Assembly: GCA_024681475.1 (NCBI GenBank)
Contig: JAILAT010000035.1
Coordinates: 1-64,000, forward strand
Origin: Bacteroidales bacterium
GTDB taxonomy: Bacteria; Bacteroidota; Bacteroidia; Bacteroidales; P3
Length of the DNA: 64,000 nt
Direction of reading: 5' to 3'
Position numbers and translations under genes: made by a program. The notes under the pieces were generated by a model. That model was not told where the DNA came from, ran no database searches, and worked only from the letters and a program-made list of their open reading frames with translations. Position 1 is the first letter of the stretch. Each line of letters opens with the position of its first letter. Shown in pieces: positions 22,953 through 28,319 of this stretch.

Positions 22953-23006
22953 AGTTGCGGCGGATTGCAATTCCGCCGCAACTACCGAACATTCGAACCG
23001 ACAAGG
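22953..23006 (+). repeat. Palindromic dispersed element, copy 1
   Basis: A 31-base palindrome with 12-base arms (AGTTGCGGCGGA / TCCGCCGCAACT) around TTGCAAT, followed by a 23-base tail beginning ACCGAACATTCG. Copy 3 (28266-28319) is its reverse complement, identical over the palindrome and at 21 of 23 tail bases. It lies just after trmH and could also act as a terminator. Confidence 0.85.
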
Positions 23007-23032
23007 GAATTAAGGCAATAGTATAACCGGAT

Positions 23033-23356
23033 CTAGTCTAAATACCAGTGAAATACAGGATCAAAAACAAAAAATAAGATCCACCAAAGAAACGCTATTA
23101 TAAAATGTTTCCGGCGGCTCTTAAAAAATGACCAACTAGGCTTGACAAGTGACATAACAATAAAAAACAACATAAGAGGGATATGTAAACAAAGGTTGTC
23201 ATGTGGATCATATGTAATATCATAAAAAGTCTTGGTAATATCCCAATTTCCACTATGTTCACTATACTTATACAAAAACCAATAGGTATATATAATCAAG
23301 TAATTTAGTATAAGTGGTAGATACACCATTAGAAATGTTGTGATTTTTTGTCTCAT
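23033..23356 (-). CDS. Small membrane protein downstream of Rhs tip (putative immunity protein)
   Basis: No family recognised. The 107-residue product has three likely membrane helices (FLMVYLPLILNYLIIYTYW near the start, IPLMLFFIVMSLV in the middle, FIIAFLWWILFFVF near the end) and a basic loop (FFKSRRKHF). It starts two bases after the Rhs-tip stop in the same direction, and both are AT-rich compared with the surroundings. A small gene tightly coupled behind an Rhs C-terminal toxin often encodes the immunity protein, and a membrane-embedded one would fit a toxin acting at the inner membrane. That role is inference from position. Confidence 0.55.
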   Translation of the reverse strand: MRQKITTFLMVYLPLILNYLIIYTYWFLYKYSEHSGNWDITKTFYDITYDPHDNLCLHIPLMLFFIVMSLVKPSWSFFKSRRKHFIIAFLWWILFFVFDPVFHWYLD

Positions 23357-23358
23357 GG

Positions 23359-24237
23359 CTAATTGCTTCTGTTAAATAAGGCATCCCAATCTCTGTCAGA
23401 TTCTTTTTTTATCCTTTTAGAGAAACCGACTGTGTGAATATTAATGAAATCTGCCTTAAGATAGTCATGCCAAAAATCGCCATTCCACCCACCTTTGAAA
23501 GGAATAAAAGATGCGCCCAACGACTTTTTTTTCGAAGAGACAATTCTTCTGTAAATAATTTGATTAGTTATACGAACTTTTAGACCGTCTGGCATTTTGA
23601 AAACTTTGCCTTTTTTTATATGAGGAGCGGCAATACCATCGGTTGATGCATACAGATCCGTGTGAGGTGGAATTGGATATGCATTTGAGGTGAAATATCC
23701 GGGGTTCATGTCAACATCACCTTTTACTCCCTCTGGCTTATAATAGATGGTATAGTCGCTCTCATTCGACACAGTGGGAATAAGTCTTTCTCCTCCGTTA
23801 TTGACTACAGTCTTCCAATCCTTGTCTGAGATACGAATCCCTTCACCATATTTGCTAAGATAGTGACCTTCCTGTTCCGCCAGGTCATGACTCATTCCCT
23901 GCTGAAATTTGCTTTTGTCCATAACAATAGCTTCCCCTCCATAGCCTTCATCGTCAGTGCCAAGCAGTTTCCCTTCTGTGCTAAAAATTGGATTCACCTC
24001 TTCCCCGTCCGGATCCACCAGCTTCAGCGGGTTCCAGGCGCAGTAGGCGTAGGGACTTATTGAGGGGTATTTGTCGGCCATGGGGTCGACGCTGAGCCAG
24101 AGAGTCGTGAGGGTGTTTTCGAGGTATCTTGCACCGAAGTAACTGTACCCTGTTTCGAGGTCTAACTCCTTGCCCGTGAAGTCCATCTGCCAGAAATGGC
24201 CGTTTTTGTGGTTGTATGTCACGCCCGTCGTCGTCAT
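23359..24237 (-). CDS. Orphan Rhs-core tip with unknown C-terminal domain
   Basis: 292-residue protein made of the last part of an Rhs-associated core (TGKELDLETGYSYFGARYLE, LWLSVDPMADKYPSISPYAY, CAWNPLKLVDPDGEE, about residues 21-85) followed by about 210 residues of unrecognised sequence. There are no YD repeats and no signal peptide. Start 24237 (MTTTGVTYNHKNG) is preferred; an upstream in-frame Met at 24282 is possible. DNA turns AT-rich just after the VDPDG codons, as when a toxin tip is swapped onto a conserved core. The C-terminal half has YTIYYKPEG, MPDGLKVRITNQIIYRR and a WHDYLKADFINIHT stretch. It resembles the polymorphic-toxin layout, but truncation leaves doubt about delivery. 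Confidence 0.7.
   Translation of the reverse strand: MTTTGVTYNHKNGHFWQMDFTGKELDLETGYSYFGARYLENTLTTLWLSVDPMADKYPSISPYAYCAWNPLKLVDPDGEEVNPIFSTEGKLLGTDDEGYGGEAIVMDKSKFQQGMSHDLAEQEGHYLSKYGEGIRISDKDWKTVVNNGGERLIPTVSNESDYTIYYKPEGVKGDVDMNPGYFTSNAYPIPPHTDLYASTDGIAAPHIKKGKVFKMPDGLKVRITNQIIYRRIVSSKKKSLGASFIPFKGGWNGDFWHDYLKADFINIHTVGFSKRIKKESDRDWDALFNRSN
24009..24180 (-). repeat. Inverted Rhs-core repeat, left copy
   Basis: The 172 bases coding the Rhs core on the minus strand match 26590-26761 on the plus strand at roughly 86-87 % by hand count, with two exact runs of about 25 bases. Similarity ends at the VDP(D/N)G codons, where the two tips diverge completely. Confidence 0.8.
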
Positions 24238-24366
24238 TTTACATCTTCGTTGCCCTGTTGATATGATAACGACAAAAACCACGTTCTAGTATGTTCCGTC
24301 GCTGCATTTTGTTCTTGAAACCAAGATGTCCCAGTCTCAGTCATCTGAATCCGGGATTGAAAATCC

Positions 24367-25149
24367 CTATACTTCATTGCGGCGGATTGCAAATCCGCCG
24401 CAACTAAAACCAAGGAACATCCGCGCCGTCATGGGGCTGCGGCGCTGGAACAGCCCTGTCAGTGTGTCGCGGCCTAAACCTGTCACACGGTGGTGGTACA
24501 GACCGCTGTCGGCATAGTGCCACACATGGCGACCGCTGCCGTCAAGGTAGTCTACAGGCCCCAGTGTGATTCCGTAGCGCAGTGCCAGGGCACTCTGCAC
24601 CTTGCGCAGCGCAGCAGTGCCCATACGTCCTTCATAGTATAGCACCTCGGCGATTTTCACCGCTCCATCACCTCCAAGCGTCAGCCGCACATGGCTGCCG
24701 AGGCTGTCGCCAGAAGTCAGCGATGACACTGACTGCCGAAGCGTGCTGATGGCTGGAGTGCCCTCCGTTTGCGATGCATAGCGCACCGAGGTGCTGTCCA
24801 TCAGCATCCGCTCGGTGGTCAGCCCCCGTGTGGAACCGTCACCATAGTCAAGCCGCCACAGCATGGCCTCACTGTCGGCCAGCGCTTTGTATACTATTAT
24901 AAGTGTGTAGTCCTCGTCATAGGGCACGCTGTCGAAGACTTTCGTCTCTCCGGCCATCAGTGTGGCGGGATTGTAGTTCAGGACCTCTGAGCCTGCCTGA
25001 CAAGGAGCGCTTCGCCAATGGAACGCCGGCGTGGGCATACTCCCTGAAGAGTATGGAACAGTCATGCCTCCATTCTGCCCTTGGGCAGCAAAACGACAAA
25101 ACAGCATAACAGCGACGACAATAAAGCTTTTCTGTATCAATGTTTTCAT
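24367..25149 (-). pseudogene. Truncated T9SS-type surface protein, 3' end replaced by palindromic element
   Basis: Signal peptide MKTLIQKSFIVVAVMLFCRF (start 25149) is followed by about 225 residues with motifs seen in N-terminal parts of large Bacteroidetes surface proteins (YNPATLMAGETKVF, LALRYGITLGPVDYLDGSGR, HVWHYADSGLYHHRVTGLGR). The frame then runs into the palindromic element, which supplies the last codons (SCGGFAIRRNEV) and the stop. No sorting domain remains. A perfect promoter still precedes it (25204-25234). The remaining 260 residues may still be made and exported to the periplasm, but secretion by T9SS would need the lost C-terminus. Confidence 0.7.
24377..24403 (+). repeat. 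Palindromic dispersed element, copy 2
   Basis: TTGCGGCGGATTGCAAATCC continuing to GCCGCAA: the same palindrome as 22953 with one centre base changed. A diverged tail containing GAACATCCGCGCCG follows at 24415-24428. It lies inside the 3' end of the truncated surface-protein gene. Just before it, 24353-24367 holds a second small palindrome, GGGATT-GAA-AATCCC. Confidence 0.8.
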
Positions 25150-25203
25150 TTCCAATCGTTTATTCCTATTTCCTATCATAATAAACATCTCTAATAACAA
25201 TTG

Positions 25204-25234
25204 CAAAGATACAAACATTATTCTATTCTGCAAA
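25204..25234 (-). promoter_or_regulatory. Perfect Bacteroidetes promoter for the truncated surface-protein gene
   Basis: On the minus strand TTTG (25234-25231), 19 bases, then TATCTTTG (25211-25204). This matches TTTG-N19-TAnnTTTG exactly and lies 55 bases before the ATG at 25149. Confidence 0.75.
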
Positions 25235-25325
25235 TTATATTTGCATTTTTTCTCCCTAATAAATTAAAGTATATAGAATAAATTGCACTGTTGCACAGAC
25301 CCGCGGGGATCCATGGTTCGGATCT

Positions 25326-26321
25326 TCATTGTTCCAACCGCGGCAGCTTCTTCACCGCCTTGGCCATGGTGCTGTTCATCAGGTCTGCATACACCTGTGT
25401 GGTGCCGATGTCCGAATGGCACATCAGCTGCTGCACCGTGAATATCGGCACCTCCTTGGTCAACAGCAGCACACAGAATGTGTGGCGCGCTATGTGGAAA
25501 GTCACCGGCTTCTTGATTTTCGCCTCTTTGCACCACTTCCGCAACGTCGCATTGACATAAGGGTTCGTCACCTTGTCGAACACGTGCTCACCCTTGCGCT
25601 CCATCCCATGCAACAGGGCCTCCGCGTCGGCGCACAGGGGAAGTCTCTCGTGGGTGTCTGTCTTCTGCTGGTGGAACTCCAACTGCAGATGTTTGCCGTT
25701 ACGTTTCACATCCTTCCACCGCAGGCCGAGCACATCGCCGAAACGCAGCCCCGTCAAGCATGAGAACAGGAACATCGACATGATGTTGCCGTACTCTTCT
25801 GGCAGCGGGTGCCGCATCATCCTCTTCAGCTCCGCCTCCGTCAGGAAGCACTTCTTCGTCTGCACCTTCTTGGGCCGCTTCACACGTTGCAGCACCCTGT
25901 CGTCGAACAGACCGTTCCTGTAAGCGTCGTGAAGCACACAGGTAAGTTTCTGAAAATGCAGCCGCACGGTGCCCTGCCCCAAACCCCGTGAATGCAGATA
26001 TGCCACAAAACCCTCTAGATACTCTGTGTTCACCCGCTCCAGCAAGCAGTCGCCGTAGGCCTCCAGATAGTTGCACATCAGCTTGTAAGTCCCTTTGGTG
26101 CTCTCCTTCACCGTGCTGCGTTCCATATATCGGCGCGCATATTCCAGCAGCCCCACCATGGAACGCTCCTCCGCAGCCCTGCAGTCCAACTGAGCCTCAT
26201 AGCAGAACCTTCTGCCTGTACCTGCATCATCGGAATTCAGCGAAATCCGCAACTCGCCACTGGCCGAATAGCCGATGGACGCCACGGAAAAGGGAAAATT
26301 TGATTCGATAATAACATTCAT
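25326..26321 (-). CDS. Tyrosine recombinase / integrase
   Basis: Site-specific recombinase of 331 residues. An N-terminal arm-type region and a SAM-like core-binding domain (about 75-175: YARRYMERSTVKESTKGTYK) precede the catalytic domain. Catalytic set: Arg in CLTGLRFGDVLGL, Lys in QQKTDTHERLPL, HxxR in FHIARHTF, His in LMCHSDIGTT and the nucleophile Tyr in TQVYADLMN. All are intact, so it should be active. It lies between the two inverted Rhs-tip cassettes. Its codon use is GC-rich like the chromosome, unlike the toxin tips. It could be the island's integrase or a local invertase; no attachment sites were confirmed. Confidence 0.92.
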   Translation of the reverse strand: MNVIIESNFPFSVASIGYSASGELRISLNSDDAGTGRRFCYEAQLDCRAAEERSMVGLLEYARRYMERSTVKESTKGTYKLMCNYLEAYGDCLLERVNTEYLEGFVAYLHSRGLGQGTVRLHFQKLTCVLHDAYRNGLFDDRVLQRVKRPKKVQTKKCFLTEAELKRMMRHPLPEEYGNIMSMFLFSCLTGLRFGDVLGLRWKDVKRNGKHLQLEFHQQKTDTHERLPLCADAEALLHGMERKGEHVFDKVTNPYVNATLRKWCKEAKIKKPVTFHIARHTFCVLLLTKEVPIFTVQQLMCHSDIGTTQVYADLMNSTMAKAVKKLPRLEQ

Positions 26322-26403
26322 ATTTCCAGTTATTTAAACAATAAATAATAATCCATTATGGACCATAAAGATACTTTTTTACCGGCAATTCACCAAAAAA
26401 AAG

Positions 26404-26411
26404 TATTTTTG
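26404..26411 (+). promoter_or_regulatory. -7 box for the right Rhs-tip cassette
   Basis: TATTTTTG matches TAnnTTTG and ends 19 bases before the ATG at 26431. No TTTG -33 box at the right distance. It suggests the right-hand cassette is transcribed from its own start rather than as part of a longer rhs gene. Confidence 0.5.
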
Positions 26412-26430
26412 CATCACAAACAGAGAAAAG

Positions 26431-27441
26431 ATGCCCACCCAGAAACACGCTCCCAACACCGGCAAAACGAGGCTGACAATCCCCGTCTCGGCATCTCTTT
26501 TTTGCACCTTTTCTTCAAAAAAGACGAATCCGGCATTTTTTCAAACCCCTTGCCAGACAATCACTTTCAGCCATTCATGCTCCTACTCTTTCACGGGCAA
26601 GGAGTTAGACCCCGAAACAGGCTACAGCTACTTCGGCGCCCGATACCTGGACCACACCCCGCTGACCCTCTGGCTCAGCGTCGACCCCATGGCTGACAAA
26701 TACCCCTCCATCAGCCCCTACGCCTACTGCGCCTGGAACCCTTTGAAACTGGTGGACCCGAACGGAAGAGAGCTAGTTTCGAATGATGACATTATCATTA
26801 AAGGGAAAAACAATTCCAGTTTGACCATTGTGACTTCTGCAGTCAATCTAACAATACATACTGACAAGGATTTTCATGGCAACCATGTAGTTGATGCCGG
26901 TTCGGCAAAGATTGCAATAGGATATGAGGTTGGTGTGGATGGAGCAGGTTCTGCTGTATTTCAAACTTCGGGAAAAGCATATATGCAAAGTGTCATGTTC
27001 TTCGGGGGCAAATATGATGGCTATTGGTATGATTATCTGGGCGGTGAGGCGCAACTGAATATTTCCAACATCGCAGAAGGAACTGTTGGGATACATAAGA
27101 ATTGGTTTATAGGGGTTTATACTGGAAAAGCAAAGGAGTTTAATCCGAAATCTTTCGCAGGAAGATACTATGGTGTTGATGTTGGTGCCTCCAGTAATTT
27201 ACTATTAGCAGGGCTCTCAATAGACGGGTCGTGGGCTCGTTCAATGAAAAAGGATTGGAATATTATAGCTTTGGGAGCATCATTTGTAGTTGGTCCCCAA
27301 ATAGATTTAGGAACAGAGCTTGTGGGGGTATATGGAGGGTCTAATCTTGGTGGAACAGTGTTAGTTACCCCAGAAATAGAAACCAAGGAACGCAAAATAT
27401 GGGATAGGGTAGGCAATTTTCTATTTCATAAACCTAACTAA
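26431..27441 (+). CDS. Orphan Rhs-core tip with glycine-rich beta-type C-terminal domain
   Basis: 336 residues. The first 50 residues (MPTQKHAPNTGKTRL...) have low complexity and match nothing known. Residues about 53-113 are the Rhs core (TGKELDPETGYSYFGARYLD, LWLSVDPMADKYPSISPYAY, CAWNPLKLVDPNGRE). The remaining roughly 220 residues form an AT-rich module dominated by alternating strand-like segments and glycine (IAIGYEVGVDGAGSAVFQTS, NISNIAEGTVGIHKNW, YYGVDVGASSNLLLAGLSID, LGTELVGVYGGSNLGGT). I do not recognise it; a beta-barrel or beta-sandwich toxin is possible. YD repeats and export signal are missing. The next gene follows after 10 bases. Confidence 0.7.
   Translation: MPTQKHAPNTGKTRLTIPVSASLFCTFSSKKTNPAFFQTPCQTITFSHSCSYSFTGKELDPETGYSYFGARYLDHTPLTLWLSVDPMADKYPSISPYAYCAWNPLKLVDPNGRELVSNDDIIIKGKNNSSLTIVTSAVNLTIHTDKDFHGNHVVDAGSAKIAIGYEVGVDGAGSAVFQTSGKAYMQSVMFFGGKYDGYWYDYLGGEAQLNISNIAEGTVGIHKNWFIGVYTGKAKEFNPKSFAGRYYGVDVGASSNLLLAGLSIDGSWARSMKKDWNIIALGASFVVGPQIDLGTELVGVYGGSNLGGTVLVTPEIETKERKIWDRVGNFLFHKPN
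26590..26761 (+). repeat. Inverted Rhs-core repeat, right copy
   Basis: Plus-strand partner of 24009-24180. Together they form a pair of 172-base inverted repeats about 2.4 kb apart, enclosing the truncated surface-protein gene, the integrase and the first bases of both cassettes. Confidence 0.8.
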
Positions 27442-27451
27442 TCTCTATCTA

Positions 27452-27952
27452 ATGGAATCCAGAAACAATAAATCTATTAACAAGAAGAGGTTTTTATTCA
27501 TCTTCTTCACAGCCTATTTCTCTTTGGCTATTATTGGTTTTATATTGACCGTAAGAAGTTCAATCAAAGAAATAAAACAACGTGCAAACCAAATAGAAAC
27601 CTTATATGGAGACATCTCTTTTTCGGGCGAGGTGATTGACTATCATCCCATTAAACACAGCATAGATCCACCAGGGGCCATTATGTGCATAAAAATTGAT
27701 TCCAGTACAGTGGATTCTTTTTATCATTATGACAGATATACCGCATTGAAGATAGATAATGGCATAGCAACATTGCCTTTAGGCCAGTATGATGTAGAAT
27801 ACAAAGAAGTAGTGTATGTCCACATCAACGAGGCTGGCTCTCATAAAATGTTGTTCATCATTGATGAGAATGACACCATCACCGAGGATTTGTATTACAC
27901 AAGCTCTTATATGTACGAAAGAGATCTTAAGATTTGCGATACCTGTTCATGA
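27452..27952 (+). CDS. Membrane-anchored protein downstream of Rhs tip (putative immunity partner)
   Basis: No family recognised. 166 residues with one membrane helix near the N-terminus (FLFIFFTAYFSLAIIGFILT, about residues 14-33) after a basic start, so probably an N-in inner-membrane anchor with a periplasmic domain. The domain is beta-rich (GDISFSGEVIDYHPIKHSID, ATLPLGQYDVEYKEVVYVHI) and ends with CDTC. It lies 10 bases behind the right Rhs tip and shares its AT-rich composition, as an immunity gene would. The role is inferred from position only. Confidence 0.55.
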   Translation: MESRNNKSINKKRFLFIFFTAYFSLAIIGFILTVRSSIKEIKQRANQIETLYGDISFSGEVIDYHPIKHSIDPPGAIMCIKIDSSTVDSFYHYDRYTALKIDNGIATLPLGQYDVEYKEVVYVHINEAGSHKMLFIIDENDTITEDLYYTSSYMYERDLKICDTCS

Positions 27953-28265
27953 GGATACAAAATTATTCCCCGAGTGGAGTGCAAATAATCAGGTTGTATC
28001 TTAGTACAGCTCCGACGCATCTTAAAAATCAGGATATGATATCCGAGAAACAATGAAGGAAGGCAAAAGGCAATAATAATAGTTCATTGCACAACGGTGT
28101 TGCACTGGGTAGTCGAATCTACAAATACAACAAAAGAAAGACAAAAGCAATATACAAGCATTTCTTACGTTATAGTAATAAATTCATCGTTTTGCAGACA
28201 ATTTGGAACATATCAGCACCTCAATTCTCATTTTTCGGAAATACCGAAAATGGTTGTTTTGTATA
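27953..28265 (+). other. Non-coding stretch behind the right Rhs cassette
   Basis: AT-rich spacer of about 310 bases. I see no convincing gene. The short open frames here lack start context and family sequence. It may be the remnant of further tip/immunity modules. Confidence 0.5.
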
Positions 28266-28319
28266 CCTTGTCGGTGCGGATGTTCGGTAGTTGCGGCGGA
28301 ATTGCAATCCGCCGCAACT
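28266..28319 (-). repeat. Palindromic dispersed element, copy 3
   Basis: Reverse complement of copy 1 at 22953-23006: the 31-base palindrome is identical and the 23-base tail differs at two positions. Copies 1 and 3 thus sit at the two edges of the Rhs island in opposite orientation. Confidence 0.85.

Follow-up and report, generated by a model that had tools for sequence, protein, structure and literature searches.

We analysed a stretch of 64,000 nucleotides from a Bacteroidales bacterium (the window: positions 1 to 64,000 of contig JAILAT010000035.1, assembly GCA_024681475.1), which holds an island, 22953-28319, where a tyrosine recombinase gene lies between two divergent Rhs cassettes. The assembly, G000 in our numbering (G for genomes, L for loci, C for contigs), is 2.38 Mb long and 87% complete, and the window is its contig C25. 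Cassette A (23359..24282, minus strand) consists of an Rhs core and a tip; cassette B (26431..27441, plus strand) has a leader peptide, a core and a tip. Both open reading frames (ORFs) match the TIGR03696 model Rhs_assc_core, at 47.5 bits for A and 51 bits for B (cut-off 32.5), and in a Pfam scan of the window proteins neither ORF, tips included, matched a family. Cassette A is followed by a small membrane protein (23033..23356, minus strand) with hydrophobic segments by eye and no Pfam match, and cassette B by a protein with an N-terminal hydrophobic segment (27452..27952, plus strand) whose only Pfam match, to Anoctamin, is below threshold (E 0.021). Both are putative immunity proteins. This is the anatomy that an original prediction, made from the letters of the DNA, had described: two divergent core-tip genes without YD repeats, both with the gene of a small membrane protein behind them. 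The ORFs and the TIGR03696 matches bear it out. The same prediction had seen the cores as inverted repeats of 172 bases, 86-87% identical, and this also stands, with 183 nt (23998-24180 and 26590-26772) that are 86% complementary. A feature it missed frames the island: two 54-nt inverted repeats, 96% identical, at 22953-23006 (minus strand) and 28266-28319 (plus strand), which form the 3′-end elements of cassettes A and B. Each holds a 27-bp palindrome (22955-22981 and 28291-28317). The GC content is low at both ends of the island.

The recombinase gene (25326..26321, minus strand) is intact and encodes 331 amino acids (aa) with matches to Phage_integrase and Phage_int_SAM_5. Residues R193, K220, H276, R279, H302, and Y311, which we take to be the catalytic residues of a tyrosine recombinase, are invariant in an alignment of 11 sequences, in keeping with the complete recombinase that had been predicted between the cassettes. 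A truncated gene had been placed there as well, and its identity is now clear. The ORF at 24367..25233 (minus strand) matches residues 4-230 (42%) of a 451-aa protein from a related genome, G017, that has a weak sorting tail of the type IX secretion system (T9SS) type. Because the match spans residues 4-230, the ORF is the N-terminal remnant of a gene for a T9SS-type secreted protein of about 450 aa. On the other side of the integrase lies a constant leader, L1 (26322..26586, plus strand), with 269 bp from the integrase start codon to the first base of a phenylalanine (F) codon in the core of cassette B. The leader contains a TAnnTTTG-type promoter element by motif match, TATTTTTG (26404..26411, plus strand), facing cassette B. 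It also contains a conserved inverted motif seen in the leader alignment, CTTTTCTTCAAAAAAG (26508..26523, plus strand), which is a possible accessory binding site. Sequence comparison gave two candidate recombination sites, A (GACTT-CACGGGC-AAGGA, 24167..24183, minus strand) and B (TCTTT-CACGGGC-AAGGA, 26587..26603, plus strand).

The integrase belongs to a clade that is associated with Rhs core-tip cassettes. We searched it against 190 genomes of the family and took 35 clade loci from 27 genomes, the window included. They were picked by identity to the window integrase, whole or as a fragment, and some small fragments in G151 and G154 were omitted. Rhs cores were present in 32 of these 35 loci and in none of 20 control loci of distant tyrosine recombinases; 33 of the 35 have a core or an SpvB gene. 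As for the three coreless loci, one (L135) holds a 39-aa fragment, and in the other two (L090 and L127) the integrase is near the contig end. A second set of 48 loci (L163-L210) had cores in L164, L179, L184, L192, and L204. L164 and L179 belong to the clade, and L180 is a clade fragment with no core match, leaving 3 of 45 distant loci with a core. An SpvB gene accompanies a full-length integrase in 8 of 12 loci versus a partial integrase in 0 of 20 (Fisher P of about 5 × 10−5, three contig-edge loci set aside). The named clade members (at least 46% identity) are uncultured Bacteroidales or Bacteroidetes assemblies, most of them linked by title to ruminants or rumen projects. A match to a phage or an integrative and conjugative element (ICE), which the original prediction had named as a finding that would count against it, did not appear for phages or plasmids: all matches in 311 phage and 292 plasmid records were below 60% identity, and no ICE collection was searched. 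IMG/VR gave one weak match.

A few loci deserve mention in their own right. At L184, L192, and L204, in three Prevotella-type or Bacteroidales genomes, Rhs cores lie no more than about 10 kb from a distant tyrosine recombinase (26-27%), by chance or as a parallel system. In G141 (L100 9040-13221), each of the two integrase copies breaks off some 135 residues in; behind one comes a gene that resembles that of an ATPase, and behind the other a short ORF that begins similarly. In G094 (L097 9606-10175), a C-terminal integrase fragment directly follows a core, in the position expected for a tip.

Relatives with a full-length SpvB/Rhs gene adjoining a clade integrase, which the original prediction had proposed to look for, were found in four genomes (G134, G104, G100, and G075). 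Their complete loci share one plan: a divergent cassette array, the integrase, the protein of about 450 aa, and a protein of about 3,000 aa that ends in a core and a tip and is followed by a partner gene and then by further cassettes. In G134 the large protein has SpvB, FG-GAP, and RHS-repeat domains and a start that looks lipoprotein-like by eye. The one protein of about 450 aa that was tested has a weak T9SS sorting tail (Por_Secre_tail, 24.3 bits, below the cut-off of 27). In G014 and G075 (L134 and L141), the locus adjoins genes that look like gldL, gldM, and gldN of the T9SS. The tips are diverse. Those of the clade loci, together with a second array in G000, number 73 and fall into 52 families; 6 of the 16 families with several members span both YD-linked cores and cassettes, across species. 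Toxin-related Pfam families were matched by four of eight scanned tips from relatives or the second array (Toxin-JAB1 three times, Peptidase_M91 once). The tips are presumed toxins, and the partner genes would encode immunity proteins. The second array of G000 (L008, C4:30289-37330) has five cores in tandem on one strand, and a search of the genome with the integrase found no close relative of it near this array. One of its cassettes carries a Toxin-JAB1 tip, and the tip of window cassette A is 51% identical to one of its tips.

All of these cores begin alike. We collected 76 cores from 22 genomes (39 in arrays, 19 in first cassettes by the integrase, and 18 YD-linked), and their common sequence starts at the same codons, F-T-G-K-E; the collecting motif demands these codons, so that cores lacking them, partial ones of which are visible in tblastn maps, are uncounted. 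In first cassettes the consensus is TCTTT-CACSGGS-AARGA, with 5-bp inverted arms, a 7-bp spacer, and a locked base at the spacer centre. Arms with a 7-bp spacer would suit the core site of a tyrosine recombinase. The constraint acts on nucleotides. Among within-genome pairs with the same residue, the same codon is used in 132 of 132 at codon 1 (F) and, at codon 2 (threonine or serine), in 144 of 151; further on, the counts are 139/166 for the glycine at codon 3, 123/166 for the lysine at codon 4, and 69/163 for codon 10. At the third base of codon 2, 158 of 166 pairs are alike, and 16 of the 17 genomes with at least two collected cores have a single base there. When only the 63 cores of 59 aa are taken, which leaves out 13 cores of 58 aa (nine from G097, two each from G075 and G014), agreement is complete at codon 1 (112/112) and codon 2 (121/121), and columns 10 and 26, mostly threonine, give 56/125 and 48/123. 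In this subset the threonine codon is uniform in 14 of 14 genomes; pooling the remaining four-fold columns gives 53 of 231 (P of about 4 × 10−9). Since species differ in the locked base, some having C and others G, a simple codon preference does not account for it. All seven sites found in G000 read TTCACGGGCAA. In G075, which has two integrase loci (L087 and L141, 65% and 52% identical to the window), the core sites of the two differ at the locked base, suggesting that the spacer base is specific to the locus rather than to the genome. As a separate observation, four loci have an insertion,.PRKG.R.PLN.., that splits the site within the first core codons (L130 635-1603, L102 13253-14221, L138 13340-14293, and L100 6368-6712).

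Sequence identity between loci switches at this site. Near-identical leaders stand before different cores, with the identity block ending 13-25 bp past the site, in G141, G075/G141 (two comparisons), G028/G144, G104, and G017/G027. G141 carries the leader and integrase start twice, without a difference over at least 500 bp up to the site. Beyond it the two copies enter different cores and first differ at the ninth base, counting from the start of the F codon. The same leader (99%) joins a third core in G075, which is 78% and 56% identical to the two of G141 over 118 bases. G028 and G144 have a nearly identical leader up to TTTCACGGGCAAAGA, after which the cores differ, and the blocks in G104 (compared with itself) and G017/G027 end 13 and 25 bp past the site. 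Core B of the window is 93% identical to one core of the C4 array from the first base of the F codon on, and the leaders differ. A YD-like match upstream is missing at 55 of the 58 sites that we did not label as YD-linked, and all 18 YD-linked contexts match another YD-linked context. The switch points at the core start led us to reject the whole core as the recombination site. By comparison of assemblies, and listed exceptions apart, the partners appear to have in common a short site with a fixed crossover. The original prediction had placed the exchange across the 172-base core; that part did not hold, and the exchange point is the short site with which the core begins.

One orthologous pair of loci differs by an inversion. 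The flank common to G028 and G144 (G028:5085-10738 versus G144:6255-36) aligns on the minus strand, in pieces 74-90% identical. A marker on the far side, a cassette with an idiosyncratic insertion, also matches on the minus strand (118 aa, 81%). The middle block, consisting of the first core, the leader, and the beginning of the integrase, aligns at 92% in the plus orientation. Being opposite in strand to both markers, it is inverted between two collinear markers. The tblastn maps show no SpvB match in either locus, and the exchange of tips expected between the two from one clean inversion was looked for and not found. G027 and G112 have flank genes in common; the locus adjoins one end of these genes in one genome and the other end in the other, and this placement could not be read.

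We consider it likely, from comparison of these sequences, that the loci form a conserved tip-switching system in which the integrase flips its own segment between tip arrays and of which the window is a degenerate copy. In a complete copy, the segment between two outward cassette arrays would run from L1 through the integrase and the T9SS-type protein gene to the SpvB/Rhs gene, as far as the start of its core; each cassette would supply a core, a tip, and a partner gene. The integrase would recombine the short site at the first core codons (5-bp arms, 7-bp spacer, TCTTT-CACSGGS-AARGA). Two inverted sites would let the segment flip; the delivery protein would be fused to a tip of the opposite array, and its former core and tip, with their partner gene, would land behind the promoter of L1. 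Direct sites within an array could allow cassette loss or gain. The original prediction had proposed that recombination between the cores inverts the middle, and for the family this is supported by what we observed: the linkage of integrase and cores, the fixed breakpoints at a fixed site, the switch points, and one inverted orthologous pair. We infer that the integrase performs the exchange and that the exchange occurs within populations. The predicted switch over the expressed tip and partner pair would, in complete relatives, be a choice of which tip is fused to the delivery protein. In its most specific form, the proposal is a dedicated site-specific system for polymorphic toxins: one recombinase, encoded within the segment that it moves, inverts the SpvB/Rhs gene between arrays and gains or loses cassettes through a 17-bp site embedded in conserved codons of the core, and the locus-specific spacer base makes only matching cassettes usable. 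This is tentative, and we rate it a little short of an even chance. If tip switching is real in these loci, some gut Bacteroidales have a large delivery protein with interchangeable tips in reserve. The integrase clade, the fixed site, and the complete loci make Rhs tip exchange testable with a plain reporter.

Several observations weigh against a tip-switching system. Only one of six readable orthologous placements is inverted; by our reading of the maps, the orientation is the same in G014/G075, G027/G100, G120/G144, G111/G120, and G094/G131. In the inverted pair, the far marker comprises the leader and core of a single cassette, those 118 aa at 81%, and, as the two species lack orthologous tips, the reading requires that tips turned over later. 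Of the 35 loci, 20 have a partial integrase, and three more are at contig edges. The site has its own exceptions. Its arms are short and, in site A, only partly symmetric. One YD-linked core in G097 has C at the locked base where the other eight have G, causing all seven codon-2 mismatches, and in G075 a third core, cut by the contig end at the second integrase locus, has C where the two collected cores have G. In G014/G097 the identity of L1 stops 16 bp before the site. All comparisons are between single assemblies, the named ones mostly metagenome-assembled.

For the window, a tip switch is not supported. A query with the SpvB end had no match in G000 (87% complete), versus matches in six of six control genomes. 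Since the SpvB part is absent from the assembly, inversion of 24184-26586 would only exchange leaders, that is, L1 for the leader of cassette A. Because this part is absent and the T9SS gene is halved, we read the island as a remnant with a possibly active integrase. The integrase and two inverted sites are left; they would still allow the flip in principle, re-arming no delivery protein. The island is thus probably a degenerate remnant of the tip-switching system, and switching there has likely lost its purpose.

One rival account, proposed for enterobacterial rhs, is RecA-type homologous recombination between the cores of about 180 bp, with the integrase as an old neighbour. The cores are often 75-95% identical within a genome, and for rhs of Salmonella and other enterobacteria the published model is exchange by homology, according to the passages we cite from PMC3967940 and PMC2935791. 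Exchange by homology should spread breakpoints across the core; instead, the leader-side breakpoints lie 13-25 bp past one codon, apart from the one pair that breaks before the site. The lack of YD-like sequence upstream of all but three of the non-YD sites also differs from the enterobacterial fragments, which vary in length in the account cited from PMC2935791. Moreover, the synonymous positions that are locked lie mainly where the core begins, and a full-length integrase is retained where the SpvB gene is. We regard this account as unlikely. A passive graveyard, in which displaced tips pile up with no switching either in the window or at other loci, agrees with the missing SpvB part and truncated T9SS gene of the window and with the many partial integrases. 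Against it stand the intact window integrase, the conserved L1 and promoter element, the nucleotide-level constraint on the site, and the existence of complete loci, which together make it quite improbable.

An integron-like mechanism deserves more weight, although we still think it somewhat doubtful. Here cassettes, each reaching from one site to the next, would be released as circles that integrate at L1 or after the YD region, with inversion as a by-product. Up to six cores stand in tandem on one side of L089, and in G104 cassette ends of 202 bp, 95.5% identical, flank one locus on either side. The site lies at a nearly fixed distance from the integrase start codon: 268-272 bp for 10 of the 19 first cassettes, 250-258 bp for four, 216-227 bp for four, and 353 bp for one. 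The constant leader has TAnnTTTG facing the first cassette in 20 of 20 cases, 184-189 bp before the site in 10, a count made without a background control. The motif is the Bacteroides −7 promoter consensus, as given in the passages cited from PMC4747536. Hairpins with a stem of at least 7 occur upstream of 10 of 39 array sites versus 0 of 37 first or YD-linked sites; these could, however, be terminators. No excision circle and no strain-level gain of a single cassette was seen among the assemblies. No attC was identified at cassette ends, though no attC model was applied. The integrase scores 69.8 bits with TIGR02249, far from the cut-off of 265, and so fails the test for an integron integrase. 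Inversion of the integrase segment between arrays, possibly together with movement of cassettes, remains our preferred reading.

The palindromes of the cassettes were a candidate for the recombination site that we rejected. TTGCGGCGGATTTGCAATCCGCCGCAA occurs in its exact form seven times in G000, always at cassettes. Allowing up to six mismatches, it is not in the integrase loci of 10 relatives (L046-L055), and there are copies in coreless stretches of G005, G027, G028, and G035 (L056-L063). It may be a terminator or a hitchhiker. For the palindromic element with flanking GCGGATGTTC, 11 of 12 matches in G000 are at cassette ends of both loci, the sole match outside the Rhs loci being 33 bp at C4:7369. 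A palindromic element that is likewise present in the C4 array lies in the leader of cassette A (24377..24403, minus strand).

How Rhs tips are exchanged has been under discussion ever since displaced tips were first described in arrays. Tip swaps are explained in print by general recombination; we propose an integrase acting at one fixed short site. Our literature searches, which covered open-licence papers, found no report of a dedicated recombinase serving Rhs tips. In the passages cited here, the displacement model for rhs requires homologous recombination and an unexplained circle (PMC2935791), and Jackson et al. 2009 describe enterobacterial core fragments of variable length, which they attribute to homologous recombination (PMC2935791). 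Enterobacterial rhs, as far as the cited passages go, resembles our loci in having a full-length gene and an array of core-tip and immunity fragments (PMC2935791 and PMC3967940). It differs in the fragment ends, which are variable there; here there are a fixed junction and an integrase clade. Closer in design is the R64 shufflon, in which the tyrosine recombinase Rci acts on short inverted sites in coding sequence to give alternative C-terminal tips of PilV. Compared by description, the two have in common a tyrosine recombinase, inverted coding sites, and tips on one constant N-terminal part. Unlike in R64, the segment that would flip here holds the constant gene together with the recombinase, and the tips, with their partner genes, are outside it. 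In Bacteroides, tyrosine-recombinase inversions (the Tsr0667 SusC/SusD shufflon and Tsr19) control surface diversity and have TAnnTTTG promoters, according to the passages cited from PMC4747536. Again by description, these switch promoters or SusC/D cassettes, whereas the loci here would switch SpvB/Rhs tips. Integrons are similar in having an integrase divergent from the first cassette, a constant leader with a promoter element, and tandem cassettes; here, however, the score of the integrase places it outside the integron family, arrays lie on both sides, and the cassettes are 3′ ends of genes. By analogy, the system would work like a shufflon with some integron features.

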